NCBI RefSeq assembly: GCF_023721715.1
Contig: NZ_JAMDLG010000001.1
Coordinates: 871,889 to 935,888 of the forward strand
Source: Parasegetibacter sp. NRK P23
GTDB taxonomy: Bacteria > Bacteroidota > Bacteroidia > Chitinophagales > Chitinophagaceae
Length of the DNA stretch: 64,000 bases
Direction of reading: 5' to 3'
The position numbers were made by a program, and so were the translations under genes. Numbering within the stretch: the stretch's first letter is position 1; every line of letters begins with the position of its first letter. A model generated the notes under the pieces. That model worked only from the letters and a program-made list of their open reading frames with translations, searched no databases and had not been told where the DNA came from. Positions 40,794-52,230 of this stretch are shown one piece after another.

Positions 40794-43013
40794 ATGGATT
40801 ACAGAAGAATTATATGCTCCTGTACAGCCATGGGCATGTTCTTTTTTGCCCAGGCACAGGATAAAAAGAGCAAGGATTCCTTGTGGAACGAACTGGATGA
40901 AGTAGTTGTTTCCTACAACAAATGGGAGCAAAACCTGAATGAGGTCCCCAATAAGATCGCGCGCATCAATATGAAACTCGCTGCCTTGCAACACCCGCAA
41001 ACAGCGGCCGACCTGCTGGGTGCTTCGGGCTCAGTATTCATTCAGAAAAGCCAGATGGGCGGCGGAAGCCCGATGATACGCGGTTTTGCCACCAACCGTG
41101 TACTTATTGTAGTGGATGGCGTGCGCATGAACAACGCCATTTACCGCAGCGGTAACCTCCAGAACGTGATCTCGCTTGATGCGCTGGCTACTGAAAACGC
41201 GGAAGTGATCTTCGGGCCGGGAAGTCTTATTTATGGAAGCGATGCCATTGGTGGTGTAATGGATTTTCATTCCTTCACGCCGAAACTATCGTCCAATGAG
41301 GACTTGTTCGTTAAAGCGAATGTGCTCACCCGTTATGCTTCCGCGAACAAGGAAAAAACCGTTCATGCCGACGTGAATTTCGGGGAGAAAAAAATATCTT
41401 TTCTTTCCAGCTTCACCTACAGTGATTTCGGCGACATGAAGATGGGAAAGAACGGCGGCCAGGACAGCTACCTTCGCCCCAATTCCGTGGAATGGATCAA
41501 CGGGAAAGACAGTGTGGTCACTAACCCGGACCCGCGTGTCCAGTTGCAAAGCGGTTACCATCAGCTCAACCTGTTGCAGAAAATCCGTATCCGCCCCAAC
41601 GATCATTGGGACCTCGGTTATGCCTACCATTATTCCGCTACGGGTAATGTGCCCCGTTATGACCGGTTGATTGAAACGAGCGGCGGCTTACCCACCTTCG
41701 CCCAATGGTATTATGGCCCGCAACGCTGGGAAATGCACCAGGCACAGGCAGCTTACACTGGCAGAACCGCGCTGTTCGACAACATGAAGGCCGTATTTGC
41801 CTACCAGGATTATGAAGAAAGTCGCCACGACCGGCGCAGAAACAATGCCAACCTCCGCAACCTCACTGAAACCGTGGAAGCTGTTTCCGCCAACTTCGAT
41901 TTCCTGAAAATGCTCGACCCGCATACAAGCCTGTTTTATGGCGCAGAATACGTTTTCAATGAAGTGGGCTCAACAGGAAACAGGGTGAACACCACCAACG
42001 GAACAGTTTCAGGTGTGGCTTCCCGTTATCCTAACGGATCAAAGTGGCAATCAGCGGCCGCTTACATCAGTTTGAAAAAACGGGTAAACCCGAAACTTGT
42101 GCTGTCCACCGGCCTCCGGTACAACCATGTTTCACTGAAGAGCAGGTTCGATACTACTTACTTCAAAACACCATTCCTGGAAGCGGACATCAGCAAAGGG
42201 GCTCTTACAGGCAATATTGGTATCACCTACCGCACAACGGAAAACTCACACCTTTTCTTCAATGTATCTACCGGGTTCAGAAGTCCGAACGTGGACGATA
42301 TCGGGAAGATATTTGAATCGGTTACCGGAAGACTGACGGTGCCGAACGCGAACCTGTCATCGGAATACGCGTGGAACGGCGAGTTGGGCTGGAACATCAA
42401 AAAAGAGAGAAGGTATAGTTTCGACATCACCGCCTTCTTCACCTATCTGGATAACGCCATCGCACGGAGAGCTTTCCGGTTGAATGGCAGCGACAGCCTA
42501 GAATTCAATGGCGGCATGGTGTTCACGGAAGCCCTTCAGAACGTGGCACACGCCAAAGTATGGGGCGTGCAGGGTGCTTTTTCTGTGTTTATTGCCCCGA
42601 GAATATCCTGGAGCATCCAGGGCAATTGGACGAAAGGAGAAGAAACGGACGACGCGGAAGACAAGAACGTTCCACTACGCCACGCGGCCCCCTTCTTCGG
42701 GAACAGCCACCTGCGTTTTATGCGTGGCAAATGGCTGTTCGACCTGTATGGCATCTACAATGCCGCGATCCGTTACGAGGACTTGGCGCCCACCGAGCAG
42801 GTGAAAACCTTCATCTACGCAAAGGACGCGAACGGCAACCCTTATTCACCTTCCTGGTACACCATCAACCTGAAGGGAAGTTGCGAGATCAACCGCCATA
42901 TTTCTGTTTCCGGAGGCTGGGAAAACATGACCAACCAAAGGTACAGGCCTTATTCATCCGGCATTGTGGCCGCGGGTTCCAACCTCGTACTCTCCGTAAA
43001 AGCTTCCATTTAA
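40794..43013 (+). CDS. TonB-dependent receptor, heme/hemoglobin type
   Basis: The 739-residue outer-membrane receptor has a signal peptide (1-21, AQA-Q), no N-terminal carboxypeptidase-like domain, a plug with LDEVVVSYNKWEQNLNEVP, GGGSPMIRGFATNRVLIVVDGVRMNNAIYRSGNLQNVI and EVIFGPGSLIYGSDAIGG, and a 22-strand-type barrel with SHLFFNVSTGFRSPNVDDI (the FRAP-NPNL-like region near residue 480) and a last strand ending in VKASI. The plug motifs and FRxPN segment are typical of heme receptors such as HmuR/HemR. The flanking heme-binding and PepSY proteins support heme or iron import. Confidence 0.88.
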   Translation: MDYRRIICSCTAMGMFFFAQAQDKKSKDSLWNELDEVVVSYNKWEQNLNEVPNKIARINMKLAALQHPQTAADLLGASGSVFIQKSQMGGGSPMIRGFATNRVLIVVDGVRMNNAIYRSGNLQNVISLDALATENAEVIFGPGSLIYGSDAIGGVMDFHSFTPKLSSNEDLFVKANVLTRYASANKEKTVHADVNFGEKKISFLSSFTYSDFGDMKMGKNGGQDSYLRPNSVEWINGKDSVVTNPDPRVQLQSGYHQLNLLQKIRIRPNDHWDLGYAYHYSATGNVPRYDRLIETSGGLPTFAQWYYGPQRWEMHQAQAAYTGRTALFDNMKAVFAYQDYEESRHDRRRNNANLRNLTETVEAVSANFDFLKMLDPHTSLFYGAEYVFNEVGSTGNRVNTTNGTVSGVASRYPNGSKWQSAAAYISLKKRVNPKLVLSTGLRYNHVSLKSRFDTTYFKTPFLEADISKGALTGNIGITYRTTENSHLFFNVSTGFRSPNVDDIGKIFESVTGRLTVPNANLSSEYAWNGELGWNIKKERRYSFDITAFFTYLDNAIARRAFRLNGSDSLEFNGGMVFTEALQNVAHAKVWGVQGAFSVFIAPRISWSIQGNWTKGEETDDAEDKNVPLRHAAPFFGNSHLRFMRGKWLFDLYGIYNAAIRYEDLAPTEQVKTFIYAKDANGNPYSPSWYTINLKGSCEINRHISVSGGWENMTNQRYRPYSSGIVAAGSNLVLSVKASI

Positions 43014-43023
43014 AACACCAACC

Positions 43024-43602
43024 ATGCAGCAGAACACTTCAGCACAGATAGCCCGCAAAACGAGATGGCACAGAAAATGGCACCGGAACATCGCCATTAT
43101 AGGAGCTGCTTTCCTATTGTTCACCTCCGTTACCGGCCTGCTGCTGGCCTGGAAAAAAAATAGCGGGGGATACCTGCTGGCGGAATCAAAGAAGGGGAGC
43201 AGCCCCCTTCTTTCCCAATGGCTCTCTTTTGAAACGCTTTCTTCCAAAGCCATTACGGCGCTTCGCGAAAAACACGGTAATACTATTGATACCGTGATCA
43301 GCCGGATCGATGCGCGGCCGGATAAAGGAATGGTCAAGTTCATTTTCGAGAACCATTACCACGCGCTCCAGGTAGATGCCGTTACGGGAAATATACTTTT
43401 GTACGAGGAACGGCGCGCCGACTTTATTGAACAGTTGCACGACGGCAGCATCATTGATAAGCTGTTGAGCGCCAATGGTCTGGGTAAACTCACCTACTCC
43501 ACCATTGGAGGAATAAGCCTCCTCCTGCTCACCATTACCGGGTTCTGGCTCTGGTATAACCCGAAAAGAATCCGGAAGAGAAAGGCAGAAATTCAGCCCT
43601 GA
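43024..43602 (+). CDS. PepSY-domain membrane protein
   Basis: The 192-residue product has two membrane helices (about 22-43 and 155-177), a cytoplasmic His/Arg-rich start (RKTRWHRKWHRN), and a periplasmic PepSY-like domain around ALREKHGNTIDTVISRID and HYHALQVDAVTG. The helix start WHRNIAIIGAAFLLFTSVTGLLLAWKK and the final LTITGFWLWYNPKR match PepSY_TM proteins seen next to siderophore and heme receptors, some of which act as ferric reductases. It follows the receptor by 10 bp and is probably the last gene of the cluster. Confidence 0.85.
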   Translation: MQQNTSAQIARKTRWHRKWHRNIAIIGAAFLLFTSVTGLLLAWKKNSGGYLLAESKKGSSPLLSQWLSFETLSSKAITALREKHGNTIDTVISRIDARPDKGMVKFIFENHYHALQVDAVTGNILLYEERRADFIEQLHDGSIIDKLLSANGLGKLTYSTIGGISLLLLTITGFWLWYNPKRIRKRKAEIQP

Positions 43603-43659
43603 AACTTAAACGGAGGCAGCATATTCTGAAAATTATTGTCTAACTTGTATGGTAACCAA

Positions 43660-44253
43660 ATGTCGTATATGACGGAGGAAGCCATTCTTACCGGTTGCTT
43701 AAGAAATGATGCAACCGCCCAAAAGGAGTTATACAACCGCTACAGCCCGAAAATGTTGTCGGTGTGTTTCAGGTACGCCCACAACAGGGAAGACGCGGAA
43801 GATATGCTCCAGGAGGGTTTCATTAAAGTGTTCTCGCAAATCCACACCTTCCAGGGCAAAGGCGCTTTTGAAGGTTGGGTGAGAAGGGTGATTGTGCATA
43901 CCTGCATCAACATTCTGAAGAAGAACAAAAAGTTCAATGAAAGTGTGGACATTATTCACGCTTCGGGCGTGCAGGTAAGGGAGGAATCCGTTCCGTCGAT
44001 CATCCAGGCCAAGCAGGTTATCGATTGCATCAGGATACTCCCGATCGGATACCGGACGGTACTCAACCTGTATGCCATTGAAGGCTACAACCACAAGGAG
44101 ATCGCAGAGATGCTGGACATTGAGGAAAGCACGAGCCGCTCGCAGTACACCAGGGCCCGCGCCATGCTGGAAGATATTCTTGTGAAAAAAAGAATTATGC
44201 AGAAACCACGGGAAAAAGCAGGCTGGTTCGCCGCGCTTACCGGGAGATCCTGA
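43660..44253 (+). CDS. ECF-family RNA polymerase sigma factor
   Basis: The 197-residue protein has sigma region 2 (LYNRYSPKMLSVCFRYAHNREDAEDMLQEGFIKVF, about residues 25-60; binding to -10 DNA and core) and region 4 (IGYRTVLNLYAIEGYNHKEIAEMLDIEESTSRSQYTRAR, about 125-165; -35 recognition by HTH). The C-terminus adds about 25 basic residues. ATG 43660 is chosen; the upstream in-frame TTG at 43636 is unlikely. The stop of sigma precedes the next gene's ATG by about 20 bp, so the downstream membrane protein is its likely anti-sigma factor. Confidence 0.92.
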   Translation: MSYMTEEAILTGCLRNDATAQKELYNRYSPKMLSVCFRYAHNREDAEDMLQEGFIKVFSQIHTFQGKGAFEGWVRRVIVHTCINILKKNKKFNESVDIIHASGVQVREESVPSIIQAKQVIDCIRILPIGYRTVLNLYAIEGYNHKEIAEMLDIEESTSRSQYTRARAMLEDILVKKRIMQKPREKAGWFAALTGRS

Positions 44254-44273
44254 GACCTTGAAACGAGACCGGC

Positions 44274-45785
44274 ATGGAGAGAGACTTTTACACAGATGAT
44301 TTTGAACAATATCTAAGGGAAAAAACAGACGAATACCGGATGTTCCCCTCTGATACTGTTTGGAAAAAAATTCACCGCCAACTGCATGTGTACAGGCGCT
44401 GGACCATGTTCGGTATATCCGCCCTGCTGCTGGGCGCCACTTTCCTCGGAGGCAGGTTTTTCCTGAGCGGCACTGAAAATATCCTAGCCGATGCCGCCAA
44501 CAACCAGGTAACACCTTCTCCACTTTCCACTACAAATTCAGAAGAAGAAGCGGAGAAAAAAACCGCAAAGAAAGAGCCTGGTAAAGAAGCGGCAAAATAC
44601 ATAGCGCCCAACCAACTCATTATTGCCATCAACAACATCAGGGAAAGGAAACTTTCCAATATGCTTTTCCAGGACATCGCGGAAAAGAACGATCCCAACA
44701 TGAAGGTGGCCTGGCTTCGTCCCGCGGAAGTGGATAGTCCGGCTATTGTAGCCGCTGAGGTTCCGGAAGAAAAAGAACTGCCAGCCCCTGTTGTTGCGCA
44801 GATAGAACTGAAAACCACGGCTTCCTTCCCCGTTAAAACACCGGAATCACAACCTGTTCCTCATCTGGAAGCCGCTCATATTGAAAAACCTTCCGCCCTG
44901 AGCGCTCCGCTTCAACAGGCACTTACGGTACCGGTAAACGGAACAATGGATATTGCTTCCGTAAAACTGTTGGAAGACAAGCCATTCCTTTCTGAAGAAG
45001 ACAAAAGACATATAGATAATTTCGCGCTGAACTATATCCCCCCTCAGCGAAAGAAACTAAGTGTCCAGTTCTACGTAACGCCTACGGTTAGTTACAGAAG
45101 GTTAACCGATTGGGGGAAAAACATCAACCTCAATTCCGCGCCAACCAACCTCACCACGCAAGCCCACTACGATATTGACAAATACGTGAACCATAAGCCA
45201 TCATTTGGCTTTGAAGCCGGTTCCAATATGCTCGTAAAACTGATGCCCGGCTTAACCTTGAAAACCGGTCTTCAATTCAATTTCTCCCGCTTCCAGGTGC
45301 ACGCTTATAATGCGGCGCCGGAAACAGCAATCGTGGCTATGAGCACCACTACCGGCAACCAGCCCGACACGATGCTCAGCAGCAGCAGGCTCAGGAACTA
45401 TTTCGGCTATTCGAGGGCGGAAGTCCAGAACCAATACATGCAACTTTCCATGCCGGTGGGGCTGGAACTCCGCGTGGCGGGCACCAATAAATTCAGTTTC
45501 AACGTGGCAGGTGCCGTTCAGCCCACCTACCTGCTGGGCAGCAACAGCTACATGCTGAGTTCCGATTACAAACATTACGTGAAAGCGCCGGACGACCTGA
45601 TGCGCCGCTGGAACCTGCACACCAATCTCGAAGCTTATTTCGCCTTCGAAAAGAACGGGCTTCGCTGGCAAATGGGGCCACAATTCAGGTACCAGATGCT
45701 TTCGAGTTATGAGAACAGGTATCCTATACGGGAATACGTGATCGATTATGGTTTCAAGATCGGCGTAAGCAAAATTTTCAAATAA
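44274..45785 (+). CDS. Putative dual-membrane-spanning anti-sigma factor with C-terminal OM barrel
   Basis: The 503-residue protein starts with a short acidic/basic cytoplasmic segment (1-41; DFEQYLREKTDEYRMFPSDTVWKKI) as in anti-sigma N-termini, has a single membrane helix at about 43-64, a periplasmic linker of about 195 residues rich in Pro, Glu and Ala, and from about 259 to the end alternating amphipathic strands (LSVQFYVTPTVSYR, LKTGLQFNFSRF, QLSMPVGLELRV, KIGVSKIF) like a PorT/OmpW-type eight-stranded barrel. There is no signal peptidase site. This matches the architecture of Dma-type anti-sigma factors of Bacteroides, which reach across both membranes. Position right after the ECF sigma gene supports the role; the sensing function is inference. 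Confidence 0.75.
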   Translation: MERDFYTDDFEQYLREKTDEYRMFPSDTVWKKIHRQLHVYRRWTMFGISALLLGATFLGGRFFLSGTENILADAANNQVTPSPLSTTNSEEEAEKKTAKKEPGKEAAKYIAPNQLIIAINNIRERKLSNMLFQDIAEKNDPNMKVAWLRPAEVDSPAIVAAEVPEEKELPAPVVAQIELKTTASFPVKTPESQPVPHLEAAHIEKPSALSAPLQQALTVPVNGTMDIASVKLLEDKPFLSEEDKRHIDNFALNYIPPQRKKLSVQFYVTPTVSYRRLTDWGKNINLNSAPTNLTTQAHYDIDKYVNHKPSFGFEAGSNMLVKLMPGLTLKTGLQFNFSRFQVHAYNAAPETAIVAMSTTTGNQPDTMLSSSRLRNYFGYSRAEVQNQYMQLSMPVGLELRVAGTNKFSFNVAGAVQPTYLLGSNSYMLSSDYKHYVKAPDDLMRRWNLHTNLEAYFAFEKNGLRWQMGPQFRYQMLSSYENRYPIREYVIDYGFKIGVSKIFK

Positions 45786-45826: not shown

Positions 45827-46417
45827 ATGCGAATAACAGTGATTATAGCCCTGGTGTTCCTATACGCCTGCCAGGGAACCCCATTGAAAACGGAAGCCGG
45901 TGATATCATGAAAGACAGTATCGCAGCCTCCAAAGAATACTATCCCATTCCCGCCTTTATTACCGAGGAACTGAAATACGCCCAGGAAAACCCAACGGCC
46001 ATTACCAGGTATATTACGATTGGCAATAAAGTGGATTCCGGGTTCGTGCCTTACGATACACTGGAGGCATTCGCCACCGCATTCATGGGAATTGACCTGA
46101 ACGATGCCACCTTTAAAAGAGATGTGGTAGAAAAAACTTTCATGGATGAATCCATCGGACTGGTCACGCTCAGCTATACCATAGACAACGACAAAACACC
46201 ATTGCGCCGGGCCGATATACTCGTGAAAGAAGGGGAAGTGAAGAGTAAAGTGAACAGTATTTACCTTGAAAAAGTGGCGGAAAATAACGGCACCACTACC
46301 GTGAAAAAACTGTACTGGAAATCCAGGCAGAACTGCATGGTTATTGAACAGGAAACAGATGCCTCCGGCAATGAAAAAATGATCCAGACCAAACTGGTAT
46401 GGAACGCCGGCGAATAG
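45827..46417 (+). CDS. Uncharacterised lipoprotein
   Basis: The 196-residue product has a very short lipoprotein signal (ITVIIALVFLYAC; Cys at 15). The mature part has YYPIPAFITEELKYAQENPTAITRY (about 38-62), KVDSGFVPYDTLEAFATAFMGIDL and beta-rich stretches ending in LYWKSRQNCMVIEQET. I do not recognise a characterised family, though similar small lipoproteins occur upstream of uvrC in related genomes as far as I recall. It is separated from uvrC by 7 bp and is probably co-transcribed with it. Confidence 0.75.
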   Translation: MRITVIIALVFLYACQGTPLKTEAGDIMKDSIAASKEYYPIPAFITEELKYAQENPTAITRYITIGNKVDSGFVPYDTLEAFATAFMGIDLNDATFKRDVVEKTFMDESIGLVTLSYTIDNDKTPLRRADILVKEGEVKSKVNSIYLEKVAENNGTTTVKKLYWKSRQNCMVIEQETDASGNEKMIQTKLVWNAGE

Positions 46418-46424
46418 CTATATC

Positions 46425-48242
46425 ATGACCGCACAGGAATACCAGCAGATCGCACATACCATCCCGCACCAACCCGGTATCTATAAATACTATGATAAAC
46501 AGGGCACACTGTTGTATGTGGGAAAAGCAAAGAACCTGCGGAAAAGGACTGGGTCTTATTTCACAAAAAGTTATCCCAACTACAAAACAAAGGAGTTGGT
46601 CACCCGCATCCACCGGGTGGAATTCACCATCGTAGACAGTGAGCAGGATGCCTTCCTGCTTGAAAACGCCCTGATCAAACAATACCGGCCGAAGTACAAT
46701 ATCGACCTGAAGGATGATAAATCGTATCCCTTCATTGTCATTAAAAAAGAACATTTCCCGAGGGTGTTCCTTACGCGCAATAAAATCAACGATGGCTCGG
46801 AATACCTGGGGCCATTCACTTCCGTCGGCAGAGTGCGGGAGTTGCTGAACTTCATCCGGCTCAACATCCCGTTGCGGACCTGTAAACTGAATCTTTCCCC
46901 GGCGAATATCCGGGCAGGAAAGTTTAAAGTATGCCTGGAATACCATCTTGGCAACTGTAAGGGCCCCTGTGAGGCCTTGCAGACCGAAGAAGATTACCAG
47001 GCCGGACTGCTGCAGATCCGGCAGATATTGAAAGGGAACGTTTCCCCCGTGATCCAGCAGTTTAAGGAGCAGATGCAGGCTTTCGCGCAGGACATGGCCT
47101 TTGAAAAAGCCGAGATGATGCGCAAGAAAATTGAACACCTCGAAAATTACAATGCCCGCTCCGTAGTAGTAAGCAGGTACCTCACAAATATTGATGTGTT
47201 CTCGCTGCTCAAAGAAGACGAATGGGCCTACGTAAACTACCTGATGGTGCAGAACGGTACCATCGTTCAAACCCATACCATCCGACTGGAAACACACCTG
47301 GAAGAGACGGATGAAGAAGTACTCGTGTTTGCGATACAGCAGCTCAGAGAAACCTTCAACAGTCTGGCGGATGAGATAGTCGTCCCCTTCCCTATTGAGT
47401 TCCCGCTCGAAGCGATTACGATTACTGTACCCAAGGCCGGCGACAAGAAAAAACTGGTAGAATTATCGTTAAAAAACGTGAACTATTTCCGTGAAGAAAT
47501 CCGGAAGAGAAAGATCCTTCAACTGGAAGGAAAGGATGACCAGGAAAAGAAAAAAGTCCTGTACCAGCTCCAGGAAGAACTTCAATTGCCCGAACTGCCG
47601 GTTCATATAGAATGCTTCGATAACTCCAATTTCCAGGGCAGCTACCCGGTTTCGGCCATGGTATGTTTCAGGAACGGCATCCCCAGCAAAAAAGACTACC
47701 GCCACTACAACGTGAAAACCGTGGAGGGCATCAATGATTTCGCCACCATGAAAGAAGTGGTTTTCAGGCGTTATAAGCGCCTCCGGGACGAGGAGCAGTC
47801 TTTTCCTCAACTGGTCATCATTGATGGTGGTAAAGGACAATTAGGCGCCGCTATGGAGAGCATAAGGGAGCTGGGACTCGTAGGTAAAATGACCCTCGTG
47901 GGGCTTGCTAAAAACGAAGAAGAACTGTTCTTCCCCGGCGATTCGGAATCCATTAAGCTCCCCTATAATGGCGACTCCCTAAGACTGATCAGGCGTATCC
48001 GGGATGAAGTGCACCGCTTCGGCATCACCTTCCACCGCAACCAACGCAGCAAAGGTACTTTCAGTAATGAACTGGAACAGATACCAGGTATCGGTAAACA
48101 AACGGCCGAAAACCTTTTAAAGCATTTCCGCTCGGTTAAAAATGTAAAGAACGCCTCGGAAGAAGAGCTCATTAAGGTAGTGGGTGTTGCGCGCGCTAAG
48201 CTCATCCGCACACATTTCTCCGCTGAAAACACGGAAGAATAG
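46425..48242 (+). CDS. uvrC: Excinuclease ABC subunit C
   Basis: Nucleotide-excision repair endonuclease that cuts on both sides of a UvrAB-bound lesion. The 605-residue protein has the N-terminal GIY-YIG nuclease (PGIYKYYDKQGTLLYVGKAKNLRKRT, about 17-42), the Cys-rich middle (RTCKLNL...VCLEYHLGNCKGPCEA), a UVR-like region (QDMAFEKAEMMRKKIEHLE), the RNase H-like second nuclease (ECFDNSNFQGSYPV, LVIIDGGKGQLGAA) and a C-terminal helix-hairpin-helix pair (LEQIPGIGKQTAENLL). Length is normal. It follows the lipoprotein gene closely and is ended by a terminator. Confidence 0.96.
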   Translation: MTAQEYQQIAHTIPHQPGIYKYYDKQGTLLYVGKAKNLRKRTGSYFTKSYPNYKTKELVTRIHRVEFTIVDSEQDAFLLENALIKQYRPKYNIDLKDDKSYPFIVIKKEHFPRVFLTRNKINDGSEYLGPFTSVGRVRELLNFIRLNIPLRTCKLNLSPANIRAGKFKVCLEYHLGNCKGPCEALQTEEDYQAGLLQIRQILKGNVSPVIQQFKEQMQAFAQDMAFEKAEMMRKKIEHLENYNARSVVVSRYLTNIDVFSLLKEDEWAYVNYLMVQNGTIVQTHTIRLETHLEETDEEVLVFAIQQLRETFNSLADEIVVPFPIEFPLEAITITVPKAGDKKKLVELSLKNVNYFREEIRKRKILQLEGKDDQEKKKVLYQLQEELQLPELPVHIECFDNSNFQGSYPVSAMVCFRNGIPSKKDYRHYNVKTVEGINDFATMKEVVFRRYKRLRDEEQSFPQLVIIDGGKGQLGAAMESIRELGLVGKMTLVGLAKNEEELFFPGDSESIKLPYNGDSLRLIRRIRDEVHRFGITFHRNQRSKGTFSNELEQIPGIGKQTAENLLKHFRSVKNVKNASEEELIKVVGVARAKLIRTHFSAENTEE

Positions 48243-48770: not shown

Positions 48771-49805
48771 TTAATAGGACCAGAGATCCTGCTCGTAGTT
48801 GAAGATGCGTTCTTTTACGGCATCTCCTTCCAGCAAACGAAGGATGGGATCTTTTACGTAATCCGCGATGTAACGATCATAGGGGTTATCCATAGTCGTC
48901 TTGATGATCCTCGCGCTGAACATCCTGCTTTCGAACAATTCTTCCCAGCTCATGCGGGCGCCGATGTTCTTTCCGTTGAACACCTCATAACGTGCCAGCA
49001 TGGGGCGCAGATCGGGATAATACACCCAGAAAATCGGGGTAACATCACGGAACGAGCCATCTGAATTATAAATGTTCTTCAGCGGAGCGATGCCGAGTAT
49101 CCTTGTGTAAAGGCGGGAAGATTCCTTATCGAACACCACATCTTCTTTGATCCAGTATTTCTCGATGGCCTCAGGGTTGAATTCATCGATGATGATAGAA
49201 TCTTTGAAGATATCTTTAGATCCGTCGGGATCGGCGTTCCAGTCGCGCACCTGAACAGTCTTGGGTTCACCTACCAAAGTTTTGGTGATCTCCCCCATCG
49301 TGATGGGCGTGGTGAAGCGGTCGTCGATCGGACTGAAAGCGGTGATGCTGTCGTTCGGATTCTTCAACGCGTTCAGCAGGATACTTATAAAGCGCTGGTT
49401 GCCATTGTCTTCGTTGGCTTTGTTCACGAAGGGCATGTTGATTTTTTCCCGAACATCAAGTTCCCTCCACACCCTTTGGCGGTATACGGCATCATCTTCG
49501 CGGATGTGCTCGTAAGCCAGTGGTGTTCTTTCCTTCACCAGGTTCCTTTCGATGGCGTTGTCGTTCCGCAATGATTTGCGGATCGTATCCAGCTTCAGTT
49601 CCGGGGGAGGTGGTGGCAACTTTTTCACTGTATCCGCGGGTGGCGGTGTATTCTGCACGGCATTGTTGTTGGCTGCAGTATTGTTGGTCGTGGGAGTTCT
49701 ACGGGTCGTAGGTCTAGGTCTGCGGCCCGTCTGTGCATCGGCAGTTTCAGCTACACCGGCTACCAGCGTAAGCAACAACAGTGATTTGATGATTCGGTTC
49801 TTCAT
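48771..49805 (-). CDS. gldN: Type IX secretion / gliding motility protein GldN
   Basis: Periplasmic ring component of T9SS that works with GldK. The 344-residue protein has a signal peptide (1-24, ADA-Q), a low-complexity Arg/Thr/Asn/Pro-rich linker (about 27-70), and the conserved GldN/PorN domain with REDDAVYRQRVWRELDVREKINMPF (about 98-122), RDWNADPDGSKDIFKDSIIIDEFNPEAIEKYWIKEDVVFD and TPIFWVYYPDLRPMLARYEVFN. It is the last gene of the gldK-L-M-N operon, 12 bp after gldM, and is followed by a terminator. Confidence 0.95.
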   Translation of the reverse strand: MKNRIIKSLLLLTLVAGVAETADAQTGRRPRPTTRRTPTTNNTAANNNAVQNTPPPADTVKKLPPPPPELKLDTIRKSLRNDNAIERNLVKERTPLAYEHIREDDAVYRQRVWRELDVREKINMPFVNKANEDNGNQRFISILLNALKNPNDSITAFSPIDDRFTTPITMGEITKTLVGEPKTVQVRDWNADPDGSKDIFKDSIIIDEFNPEAIEKYWIKEDVVFDKESSRLYTRILGIAPLKNIYNSDGSFRDVTPIFWVYYPDLRPMLARYEVFNGKNIGARMSWEELFESRMFSARIIKTTMDNPYDRYIADYVKDPILRLLEGDAVKERIFNYEQDLWSY

Positions 49806-49817
49806 TATACAAACGAG

Positions 49818-51353
49818 TTATTTCAAATTAAAGAAAATACCGGGAATAGCGCGGATCTTTCCGTCCGGACCTTGTACCCTGATCTCATCGAAGAAGATAG
49901 AGGTACCTGGTGTTGCGCGGTTGATCAATCCCGCGGCGTTTCCGCTCCAGCGGGGACCATCGTTGGCGAACTGCTGATAAGAAGCGATCTCTCCGCCTTT
50001 CGCGCCCAGCACATAGCTGATCACTTTAAAAGGCGCGTCGAAATCAGAATCTTTCAGTTTAGCGATCAGCCCCCCCTGCGCCTTGAAGTTCGCGGAGGCC
50101 ATAGCGCCACCACCTGAACCGCCTACCATTACAACGGGATCCGGCAGTACTTTACACCTCATAGAGAAAGGCGTGGATTTGCCATCAGCGGTTACGATAA
50201 TTTCAGCTGGACCGGTCTTGTTGGGGATCGCGATGTAACGGTCACCACCAACTTTTCTCAGTTCACCACCGGTGAAACGTACACTTACTTTTTCTGAACC
50301 CACGCTACCACCAGAGATGGTGAGCGGGTTCTCAACTCCCTGGTACAGCACGTTCATTTTCTCAAGGAAGATGGAAGCGCCGGAGGGGGAGCCCACAGTG
50401 TATTCAATTACTTTAGAAATAGAAGCTGTTGTGCCATCAGGCTTGGTGTAGGTAATGTTTACAGGTACTTTGTGAGAACCAACACCATCCACTCTTGATT
50501 TCCATACAGCGGCACCGTCAGCGTTCAAAGGCTGGGCAGCACCATTAATGGTAATGGAAGGCTTTGATTTACTACTGAATGCACCCACACCTGCCGTAAT
50601 TTCCAGTTCCTGACCAGGCATGAGGTAAGTAGAGTTTGTTCCGGCGAAAGCCTGGAAGGCATCATACACCACTTGTACCTGTCCGATCTGTGAGTGGAAA
50701 TAATCCACCAACTGTGCTTCTGAACTTTTAACATCGTTCTGGAACTTGCTCAGGATAGTGATCGCTGCAATAGACGGGGTCATTCTGAAATAAGCAGCTG
50801 ACCAGTCTTTGTTCGCGGAAGAGCCTGTTTCAGATTTAGGCGGATTCAGGTCCAGCGGCAATGATTTTGCGAACTCGGCCTGCTTGGTTTTATCCTGCAC
50901 AAGCGCAAGCATATTCTTTTTATATGCTTCCAGTTTGGCGAGCAGTTCCTTACCTTTTCCGCCTTCCACCATTACACGGGTGGGGGCATCCAGGTTATCT
51001 TCCTTGAAAGATTCAACGCCATCATGCACCTCCAGACCCGATTCTTTTTTCAGGTTCTGTTTCAGGTCCTCGATATAAGAATAGAGCGCTTCTGATTCTT
51101 TCTTCGCGTTATCCGCGAAAGGTTTCCATTTTTCCGCGCGCTCCCTTGTTTCGCTGTCTTTCAGCTTCGCTTCAAAGGAGCCGTAGGTCATGTTGTTTTT
51201 GTCGGTAATGATGCGGTTGGCTTCTCCGATACTGGCGTTTACAGTCCGGAAAGCGATGATCACCTCAGCGGATACATTCAGTGCCAGCAGGGCTGTAAGC
51301 ACCAAATACATCATGTTGATCATCTTCTGCCTGGGCTCTTTAGGTAGGGCCAT
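49818..51353 (-). CDS. gldM: Type IX secretion / gliding motility protein GldM
   Basis: Inner-membrane motor shaft of T9SS. The 511-residue protein starts with EPRQKMINMMYLVLTALLALNVSAE, whose single helix (about residues 10-32) inserts in GldL's membrane bundle, then a long periplasmic part: a helical D1 region (about 35-225) and Ig-like domains D2-D4 (IEYTVGSPSGASIFLEKMNVLYQGVENPLTISGG, VRFTGGELRKVGGDRYIA, FRVK-like KVLPDPVVMVGG). The C-terminus GRIRAIPGIFFNLK-like end matches the family. Proton flow through GldL-GldM drives secretion and gliding. The length is standard. Confidence 0.96.
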   Translation of the reverse strand: MALPKEPRQKMINMMYLVLTALLALNVSAEVIIAFRTVNASIGEANRIITDKNNMTYGSFEAKLKDSETRERAEKWKPFADNAKKESEALYSYIEDLKQNLKKESGLEVHDGVESFKEDNLDAPTRVMVEGGKGKELLAKLEAYKKNMLALVQDKTKQAEFAKSLPLDLNPPKSETGSSANKDWSAAYFRMTPSIAAITILSKFQNDVKSSEAQLVDYFHSQIGQVQVVYDAFQAFAGTNSTYLMPGQELEITAGVGAFSSKSKPSITINGAAQPLNADGAAVWKSRVDGVGSHKVPVNITYTKPDGTTASISKVIEYTVGSPSGASIFLEKMNVLYQGVENPLTISGGSVGSEKVSVRFTGGELRKVGGDRYIAIPNKTGPAEIIVTADGKSTPFSMRCKVLPDPVVMVGGSGGGAMASANFKAQGGLIAKLKDSDFDAPFKVISYVLGAKGGEIASYQQFANDGPRWSGNAAGLINRATPGTSIFFDEIRVQGPDGKIRAIPGIFFNLK

Positions 51354-51465
51354 ATCTTAAACTATTTAAAGTAATTATTGTACGGTTGGTTTTTCAGGAT
51401 CGGGATTCTAAAGCAAACATCTAATACTGAGAGAAAATGGCGCTTTTAGCACACCCTTTGAATCA

Positions 51466-52230
51466 TTAAGAACGGCCTTGCATAGCGTTCAGCATATTGC
51501 CATATACCTGGTTCAGGTTGCTCAGGTTTTTAGCCAGTACGCCGATCTGCTCTTGTGTTTTCTTGGCATCTTCCACGCTGCCCTGCAGTGCCTGCGAAGC
51601 GCTGGAAAGGTTACCGTAGAACTTGTTCATCGCTTTCAGGTGGTTATTGGTATCCTGCAGTTCCAGTTCGTAAATAGTGTTCAGTGAGCCGAGGTTCTTG
51701 GTCATCAGTTGTACCTGCTCGTGGAATTGTTTTGTACCATCAGCGGCCTGGTTGAAAGCACCGAGTGAACTTGCGGCGCCCAGGTAAGCTTCTTTTACGG
51801 TACCCAGTGCGGCGGCGGCTTCTTTTGTTTTAGCGGTATAATCGCTGGTAGCGGCCACTACATTGGTCATGTCTTTCATCTGGGTAACAGTGGTACCCAG
51901 GCTTTTGAAACTTTCGCTGAGTTTTTGCAGATTGGCGGGTGTGATGTCCGCGTCCTGCATCATGTTGTCCAGTTTCGCGAGAGCGGGGTTGGAAGAACCC
52001 TGGGAAATTTTCGGCAGTGCAGCGATAAGGGGTTCCATATCGTTACCTGGAGGTGGGAGCAATGCGTAAACGATGAAGATACCTGCTTCGGTAAGAAGAC
52101 CTACGGTGAGCATGATGTCGGCAAAAGGCTTGTGAAGGATTTTTGCCCAGGCTCCGAAGATTACTACTGCGGCGCCCACACACACGATAACGTTTACGAT
52201 TCTGTCAACTGATTTAGATTGTCCGGCCAT
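51466..52230 (-). CDS. gldL: Type IX secretion / gliding motility protein GldL
   Basis: Inner-membrane stator-like partner of GldM. The 254-residue protein has two N-terminal helices (about 10-30 and 36-58) with the key charged residues inside the membrane: Lys in GAWAKILH (about 30) and Glu in GLLTEAGIF (about 48), which are implicated in proton translocation in the family. A long cytoplasmic helical domain follows (ANLQKLSESFKSLGTT, GLEQ-like coiled coils). The 112-bp gap to gldM shows no promoter or terminator that I can call. Confidence 0.95.
   Translation of the reverse strand: MAGQSKSVDRIVNVIVCVGAAVVIFGAWAKILHKPFADIMLTVGLLTEAGIFIVYALLPPPGNDMEPLIAALPKISQGSSNPALAKLDNMMQDADITPANLQKLSESFKSLGTTVTQMKDMTNVVAATSDYTAKTKEAAAALGTVKEAYLGAASSLGAFNQAADGTKQFHEQVQLMTKNLGSLNTIYELELQDTNNHLKAMNKFYGNLSSASQALQGSVEDAKKTQEQIGVLAKNLSNLNQVYGNMLNAMQGRS

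Follow-up and report, generated by a model that had tools for sequence, protein, structure and literature searches.

The window analysed here, a stretch of 64,000 nucleotides from the genome of Parasegetibacter sp. NRK P23, carries a gene for an ECF sigma factor followed by a gene for a 503-residue protein (Table 1), which raises the question of whether the state of the outer membrane can be reported to transcription by one protein fixed in both membranes. In the available portions of the reports, the Dma proteins begin with an anti-sigma domain, continue through a membrane helix and a disordered tether, and end in a barrel at the C-terminus; their genes adjoin ECF21 sigma factor genes and are described as confined to the Bacteroidota (PMC13088901). 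Dma1 works via nigD1, the Dma2 gene lies within a three-gene operon, and the effect of a dma2 deletion depends on das2 (PMC13088901). The Reo anti-sigma factor of Phocaeicola vulgatus extends to the outer membrane (PMC9308784, PMC13114119), loss of a Reo-type anti-sigma factor brings on the response of its sigma factor (PMC9308784), and expression of the EcfO-Reo pair rises strongly upon exposure to antibacterial toxins (PMC9308784, PMC13114119). Dma1, Dma2, and Reo are negative regulators (PMC13088901, PMC9308784).

The pair in the window most probably comprises an ECF sigma factor and a two-membrane anti-sigma factor of the Dma/Reo kind, which would release the sigma factor upon a change in its barrel to drive their own operon. 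It appears to be a gene switch locked by one protein fixed in both membranes, through which outer-membrane state could become gene activity directly. Switches of this kind have been described before, in gut Bacteroides, but the genes under the present one look different. As a further two-membrane anti-sigma factor, in another bacterial family than the known ones, the pair is well supported; among the matches listed in the open-access literature for anti-sigma, ECF sigma, and outer membrane vesicle, none mentions Chitinophagaceae. Direct outer-membrane-to-cytoplasm control by an anchored anti-sigma factor is thereby suggested beyond gut Bacteroides and as conserved in the Chitinophagaceae.

Table 1. 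Features of the sigma factor operon (positions in the window).
Feature	Position	Strand	Basis
ECF-type promoter GCAGC-N17-GTCTAA (predicted)	43616..43643	+	Motif count versus shuffles; conserved upstream of sigma genes
ECF sigma factor gene	43660..44253	+	197 aa; Pfam PF04542 and PF08281
Two-membrane anti-sigma factor (predicted), Dma/Reo type	44274..45785	+	AlphaFold, fold search, 80 relatives, profile matches
Residues 1-38, putative cytoplasmic sigma-binding domain	44274..44387	+	Most conserved part; helices 7-20 and 27-37
Residues 39-64, membrane helix, uncleaved, N-terminus taken as inside	44388..44465	+	Model helix; hydropathy peak 46-64
Residues 65-259, mostly disordered periplasmic linker	44466..45050	+	Low pLDDT; median identity 12%
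Residues 260-503, eight-strand outer-membrane barrel (predicted)	45051..45782	+	AlphaFold, VIA-align, PF13568 in relatives
Lipoprotein of unknown family, third gene	45827..46417	+	196 aa; lipid-site Cys15 in 70/70 aligned rows
uvrC, fourth gene	46425..48242	+	605 aa; TIGR00194 515.8 bits versus cut-off 285

The original prediction assigned to the 503-residue protein a cytoplasmic start of about 41 residues, a single uncleaved membrane helix, an extended linker of about 195 residues, and a small C-terminal outer-membrane barrel. The AlphaFold model, calculated from an 81-sequence alignment (mean pLDDT 72.5, pTM 0.57), agreed with it throughout, and the barrel, on which the prediction hinged, was present. 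The cytoplasmic part measured about 38-42 residues and was followed by the third model helix, which contains the hydropathy peak (Table 1). The linker comprised 195 residues by alignment columns and was mostly disordered, with block pLDDT values of 41-53 over residues 71-250 and low-confidence helices at 68-76 and 115-133. The strands spanned residues 262-502 at block pLDDT values of 84-98, for the most part above 90, except for the loop 281-310 (52-85), and were read from the strand list of the model as S1 (262-279), S2 (310-324), S3 (327-356), S4 (365-403, with breaks at 375-379 and 393-394), S5 (407-424), S6 (446-460), S7 (463-474), and S8 (485-502). Both ends of the modelled barrel would face the periplasm, as the linker requires.

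VIA-align placed the barrel next to the designed transmembrane barrel 6x9z (Z 17.8, 114 aligned residues, 1.5 A), PagL (2erv; Z 17.7, 135 aligned, 2.3 A), OprF (4rlc; Z 17.7, 130 aligned, 2.2 A), and OmpA (1qjp; Z 16.5, 132 aligned, 2.5 A). The Foldseek matches of the C-terminal domain were outer-membrane barrels too, with varied strand numbers. The window barrel scored 19.4 bits against Pfam PF13568, below the cut-off of 27, and the same family was matched at E <=0.01 in 69 of the 81 family members. A sequence search against solved structures returned weak matches only (E >=0.04), nearly all on the membrane helix and linker, and the N-terminal domain matched no Pfam anti-sigma family. The predicted architecture, a cytoplasmic start, one membrane helix, a disordered linker, and an OmpA-like eight-strand barrel, holds in the model.

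In a scan of genome contigs the pattern matched 305 stretches; 296 of them code for a relative, and 80 were kept. Among 59 near genomes a match was found in 24, and 23 of these fell within the 36 genomes of the strain's own family (own genome counted); phylum-wide, 25 of 296 genomes had one. The record titles of many relatives name Chitinophagaceae or genera such as Niastella, Segetibacter, Flavihumibacter, Terrimonas, and Puia, which, with others, we take to be genera of the Chitinophagaceae; the other titles comprise six Sphingobacteriales, one Williamsia, and entries given merely as Bacteroidetes, Bacteroidota, or Chitinophagales. Two genomes of the own family carry anti-sigma proteins identical to ones from titled records (L067 to L100, of a Chitinophagaceae bacterium; L068 to L174, of Pseudoflavitalea), and on this ground the own family is taken to be the Chitinophagaceae. 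A weak partial match to the anti-sigma family was seen in G031, one of the seven genomes counted below as lacking the pair.

Across the 80 relatives, residues 1-38 showed the highest median identity to the window protein (55%), followed by the barrel (40%), the membrane helix (23%), and the linker (12%). The N-terminal domain contained the invariant or near-invariant columns M23, P25, S26, V29, and W30, and the first hydropathy peak began at residues 36-74 in 78 of the 80 relatives. The linker varied from 128 to 242 residues in the 81 sequences (median 175) and had a Cys fraction of 0.000. Conserved ends joined by a variable linker argue for two functional ends on a free tether. Among the presumed surface loops, loops 1 (280-309) and 2 (357-364) were variable (1.6 and 1.4 bits), and loops 3 (425-445) and 4 (475-484) reached 2.6-2.8 and 2.5 bits, about the conservation of the strands, which makes the latter two candidate sites for the signal.

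The upstream gene is an ECF sigma factor gene, as had been proposed, on the same strand and 20 bp before the anti-sigma gene. Its product matched Sigma70_r2 (E 4.6e-18) and Sigma70_r4_2 (E 2.1e-13), both above the Pfam cut-off, and the alternative ATG at 43669 fits the start of the relatives better. The sigma factors of 37 relatives were 66-82% identical to it. A tree was built from 73 ECF sequences, in which 6 of the 80 relatives were represented; two sequences shorter than 141 residues were omitted, as were seven loci (L034, L048-L053) that we did not regard as ECF pairs. In it the sigma factor of the window fell within a clade of 23 (SH-aLRT 98). This clade held all 18 rows with a barrel-type anti-sigma factor and 5 rows with a short one, and the 50 other ECF sequences lay outside. 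In the free tree the barrel-type row L023 grouped with the short-type row L006, and the 18 barrel-type rows as a clade of their own were not rejected (AU 0.58). The short anti-sigma factors of 178-183 residues (L300-L303) and of 244 residues (L006, own genome) share with the window protein the sigma clade and one membrane helix, near residues 40-61, but are too short for a barrel. Their place in the same sigma clade indicates that sigma control in this clade can do without a barrel.

Kinship with Dma was examined through four genomes of a genus taken for Bacteroidaceae, which stood in for the Dma proteins of B. thetaiotaomicron. The genus was chosen with the alpha-mannosidase probe 6f91_A, presumably from B. 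thetaiotaomicron, which matched 1 of 395 genomes at E 1e-150 and then 12 of 38 in that genus (68-83% identity); of the four genomes, G450 and G456 matched the probe and G445 and G453 did not at that threshold. A profile of the window's sigma factor, built from 38 of 76 usable sigma sequences, ranked first in these genomes a group of sigma genes (tier a; E 1e-60 to 3e-56, four genomes) followed by genes for barrel anti-sigma factors of 408-422 residues and then for NigD-type lipoproteins; PF22221 (NigD-type) was found in all four tested tier-a neighbours, at three loci (L292, L293, L294). The second group (tier b; E 3e-54 to 4e-52, three genomes) was paired with barrel anti-sigma factors of 422-462 residues, with an LVIVD lipoprotein at two of the three loci. 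Below these came one sigma gene at 1e-39 with a 433-residue barrel protein, four at 2e-35 to 3e-33 with the short anti-sigma factors of 178-183 residues, and all remaining matches at 6e-17 or weaker. Judging from gene order, tier a would correspond to EcfO-Reo/Das1-Dma1 and tier b to the Dma2 type. The window's sigma factor was 48% and 50% identical to two sigma factors of this barrel class, one from tier a and one from tier b.

Profile comparison by hhalign, in which each E-value refers to a single comparison, aligned the window family with eight Bacteroidaceae-type sequences over the barrel (probability 94, E 1.2e-7), with tier b plus an own-genome paralogue over the barrel (probability 96, E 2.5e-9), and with the Bacteroidaceae-type barrel anti-sigma factors over 36 columns of the N-terminus (probability 87, E 4e-6). 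The match to the four tier-a anti-sigma factors alone was poor (probability 26), and BLASTP of the whole protein against the Bacteroidaceae-type barrel anti-sigma factors was weak (best E 0.006). All four tier-a sigma genes had the -35 core GCAGC ahead of them, in the form TGCAGC; TGCAAC occurred in the three tier-b promoters and TGCAGT before the remaining sigma gene (1e-39). ATC lay 18 bases downstream of the -35 element in seven of the eight Bacteroidaceae-type promoters, which are related to one another and were counted without a chance control. Judged via Bacteroidaceae-type counterparts, the proposed kinship with Dma is thus supported by sigma phylogeny, the profile matches of barrel and N-terminus, the order of domains and genes, and the recurring -35 core, which make the pair a probable relative of the Dma/Reo two-membrane anti-sigma factors.

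According to the text available for each system, the pair resembles Dma1/Das1 and Dma2/Das2 in the predicted order of parts, the adjacent ECF sigma gene, and a further operon gene, but differs in that the third gene here encodes an unrelated lipoprotein, with uvrC next, and in the bacterial family (PMC13088901). With EcfO-Reo of Bacteroides fragilis and Phocaeicola vulgatus it shares the predicted architecture and the GCAGC core of the -35 element, and its sigma factor is 48% identical to what is likely their counterpart; however, NigD lipoproteins are targets and NigD-type genes neighbours there (PMC9308784, PMC13114119), whereas here none of the 70 third-gene lipoproteins gave a NigD match at E 0.01. 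The -10 element also differs, being GTCT in window-type promoters and ATC in the Bacteroidaceae-type, EcfO-Reo-like ones.

A search for a promoter upstream of the operon itself, which had been suggested with the original prediction, yielded GCAGC-N17-GTCT. The motif had one match in the window against a shuffle mean of 0.07, with at least one match in 7 of 100 shuffles. Defined as GCAGC, 12-20 bases, and GTC followed by T or A, it was present ahead of the sigma gene in 72 of the 77 regions, the window among them, and its spacer was 17 in 68 and 18 in 4; the number rose to 74 of 77 once the sigma starts of L113 and L151 were set right, and GCAGC was absent upstream of the sigma gene in the other three (L111, L124, L126). 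A run of T preceded the motif, and mostly TAAATTACAGG followed it. A spacer of 16-18 with GTCT was found in 70 of 76 sigma regions versus 6 of 2940 random windows from the same loci. The base before GCAGC was G in the window (GGCAGC) and T in 34 of the 70 strict-motif regions. The layout of the motif is that of an ECF promoter, from which autoregulation is predicted. The promoter GCAGC-N17-GTCT was not met in the available portions of the Dma/Reo literature.

The gene order was conserved beyond the pair. By script, the ECF gene lay immediately upstream of the anti-sigma gene in 77 of 80 loci, and in L140 it lay 251 bp upstream; it preceded the anti-sigma gene in all 78 testable loci, L102 and L133 having too little DNA. 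An ORF started within 400 bp downstream of the anti-sigma gene in 75 of 80 loci, and 69 relatives chosen from these 75 ORFs by length (180-210, L152 excluded) were aligned with the window's third gene. The resulting 70 lipoproteins are of about 195 residues with an invariant lipid-site Cys. Against Pfam they matched no domain family, only the lipid-site motif in 2, and solved structures offered no clear counterpart to the confident model of the lipoprotein (pLDDT 87; best Foldseek E 1.1e-3, best VIA-align Z 6.1). In the window, uvrC begins 7 bp past the lipoprotein gene (starts of the four genes in Table 1); of the 66 loci that extend far enough, 64 had a uvrC start motif after the lipoprotein gene, with a median gap of 7 bp and 58 within 60 bp. 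The natural reading of this arrangement is a conserved four-gene operon of sigma, anti-sigma, lipoprotein, and uvrC genes, in which uvrC is probably co-transcribed. A lipoprotein and uvrC in such an operon were not met in the Dma/Reo literature as far as its text was available.

The architecture, relationship, gene order, and promoter motif described above were computed, and from them we infer sigma binding, the signal, proteolysis, co-transcription of uvrC, and the effects on targets. Residues 1-38 would capture the sigma factor at the inner membrane, which the uncleaved helix would cross, and the loose linker would run through the periplasm to the barrel anchored in the outer membrane. The trigger may be a change in the barrel, such as failed assembly, outer-membrane damage, or something bound by loops 3 and 4, and the sigma factor would be released, most likely via a cut of the linker in the periplasm. 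The freed sigma factor would then transcribe from GCAGC-N17-GTCT, its own operon first in a self-amplifying manner, raising sigma factor, anti-sigma factor, lipoprotein, and UvrC, and perhaps RNase Z too in several genera. Outer-membrane status could in this way be reported without a separate relay, a possibility to which experiments on relatives point in the available text (PMC9308784, PMC13114119).

In E. coli, RseA ends in the periplasm, and unfolded outer-membrane proteins are sensed separately. The present pair is like sigma-E/RseA in that an envelope signal would be released by an inner-membrane anti-sigma factor, and unlike it in that the window protein itself is predicted to reach the outer membrane.

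The barrel may alternatively be a mere anchor or assembly probe, the anti-sigma factor being a client of the barrel-assembly machine whose own misfolding exposes it to a periplasmic protease with no ligand involved. We regard this as a serious possibility, if the less probable one, since the available text on Phocaeicola vulgatus names ecfO-reo as the genes whose expression rises most under BcpT and under Bd-A (PMC13114119) and bacteroidetocin A, taken here as Bd-A, binds and inhibits BamA (PMC9308784, available text); the variability of loops 1 and 2 fits it as well. A bare anchor, however, would need no loops conserved about as well as the strands, as loops 3 and 4 are. That the barrel protein is instead a co-transcribed outer-membrane target and no anti-sigma factor, with the sigma factor controlled elsewhere, is quite improbable: the N-terminal domain, whose sigma binding is a prediction, matches no Pfam anti-sigma family, which leaves room for it, but an uncleaved helix and a cytoplasmic domain conserved better than the barrel (55% against 40% median identity) would be senseless in a plain porin, and the published counterparts act negatively, as cited above. 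Surface signalling of the FecI/FecR type through the TonB-type receptor gene at 40794-43013 is hardly credible, as this receptor, whose best NCBIfam match is a heme/hemoglobin receptor family below the cut-off, does lie with a PepSY gene directly upstream of the sigma gene, but a self-made receptor motif occurred upstream in just 3 of 62 loci and no FecR match was obtained by Pfam search. A link between the receptor and the pair was dropped on this count.

Candidate targets outside the operon were sought by motif. A search of 20 genomes allowing up to two mismatches gave 20 matches against 4 for the reversed control; ten were sigma-operon promoters by position, one belonged to the RNase Z gene of the own genome, one (L257, in G019) lay 19 bp before a 492-codon ORF, and the remaining eight were inside ORFs of at least 150 codons. 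In the own genome, GCAGC-N17/18-GTCTA had 8 matches against 6 for the reversed control. Two sat 17-18 bp ahead of gene starts, those of the sigma gene and the RNase Z gene (G000:C1:527539; NF000801 323.9 bits, cut-off 252), five were inside ORFs, and L309 was in or before no ORF found.

RNase Z was found in 26 of 27 genomes examined. The strict motif GCAGC-N17/18-GTCT lay within 120 bp upstream of it in 6 of 19 pair-bearing genomes (own included) and in none of 7 pair-less ones, a contrast that is not significant by itself, and it was missing there in the other 13 pair-bearing genomes. Counted per distinct upstream region (ORFs of at least 150 codons, both strands, loci at hand), the strict motif stood before 76 of 93 starts of sigma-like genes and 6 of 25 of RNase Z genes, and before none of the 695 others. 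The six RNase Z motifs differed in their flanks and in their distance to the start (45 in the own genome, 58-65 elsewhere), which would argue for function over shared descent of the region. The spacer was 18 in five of these six, against just 4 of 72 at sigma promoters, which lowers the likelihood of a regulon for DNA repair and RNA processing. We therefore put forward only tentatively, and as rather doubtful, that one two-membrane protein in the Chitinophagaceae couples outer-membrane status to the repair of DNA and the processing of RNA: the sigma factor under it would drive an operon with uvrC as its last gene and, in several genera, the RNase Z gene as well, in place of the NigD lipoproteins of gut Bacteroides. 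RNase Z as a target of such a sigma factor was not met in the available Dma/Reo texts, and no paper joining ribonuclease Z, sigma factor, regulon, and Bacteroidetes was found in the open-access literature. The precise promoter, the conserved gene order, and RNase Z as a predicted outside target open the regulon to tests in strains that can be cultivated, for example Niastella.

The pair of the window may have company within the same genome. Among 62 sigma region-4 matches, 50 were examined for the downstream gene, and four of them preceded a protein of at least 445 residues whose one membrane helix begins at residue 41-53: the pair of the window and those at 138 kb, 663 kb, and 1647 kb of contig C1. 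The latter three are candidates for further two-membrane sigma/anti-sigma pairs, so that several such pairs may exist in one genome. The Pfam barrel family scored above the cut-off at 1647 kb, reached 24.5 versus 27 bits at 138 kb, and gave no match at 663 kb, where the anti-sigma gene is followed by an LVIVD lipoprotein gene, as in tier b.

The genome of strain NRK P23 contained three further candidate barrel anti-sigma pairs besides that of the window. At one of these three, the gene following the pair encoded an LVIVD lipoprotein; at another, the lipoprotein encoded after the pair carried a cytochrome-type domain. The sigma clade of the barrel-type pairs also included short anti-sigmas that lack the barrel (L006 in the same genome, and L300-L303), and the sigma factor of L006 was grouped with a barrel-type sigma factor of its own genome (L023). 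This points to a possible loss or gain of the barrel.

Features in the window and at the loci examined
Feature	Location	Remarks
TonB-type receptor and PepSY membrane gene	window 40794-43602	directly upstream of sigma operon
gldN, gldM, gldL (type IX secretion system)	window 48771-52230	minus strand; NCBIfam, above cut-offs
Candidate barrel anti-sigma pairs, own genome	L207 (C1:661500-667500), L208, L056	
Promoter motif upstream of RNase Z	L311 1455-1500; also L316, L319, L321, L323, L325	

The RNase Z gene was preceded by the promoter motif of the sigma operon in six genomes that belong to different genera. Four of them carried, immediately ahead of RNase Z, a gene for a short protein with the C-terminal end QMEE-I/V-ERELL/M; in the NRK P23 genome, the gene at this position gave a weak STAS match below the cut-off. 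At another promoter-pattern match (L257, G019:C122:30821), a 492-codon ORF begins 19 bp downstream, and its start resembles an export signal.

The receptor motif was found at only 3 of 62 loci. The TonB-type receptor of the window was nearest to heme receptors, with a match below the cut-off, and the gld genes are convergent with the sigma operon. One relative of the anti-sigma (L099) was found in a MAG record titled Williamsia sp., an actinobacterium; this MAG is probably a mislabelled bin.
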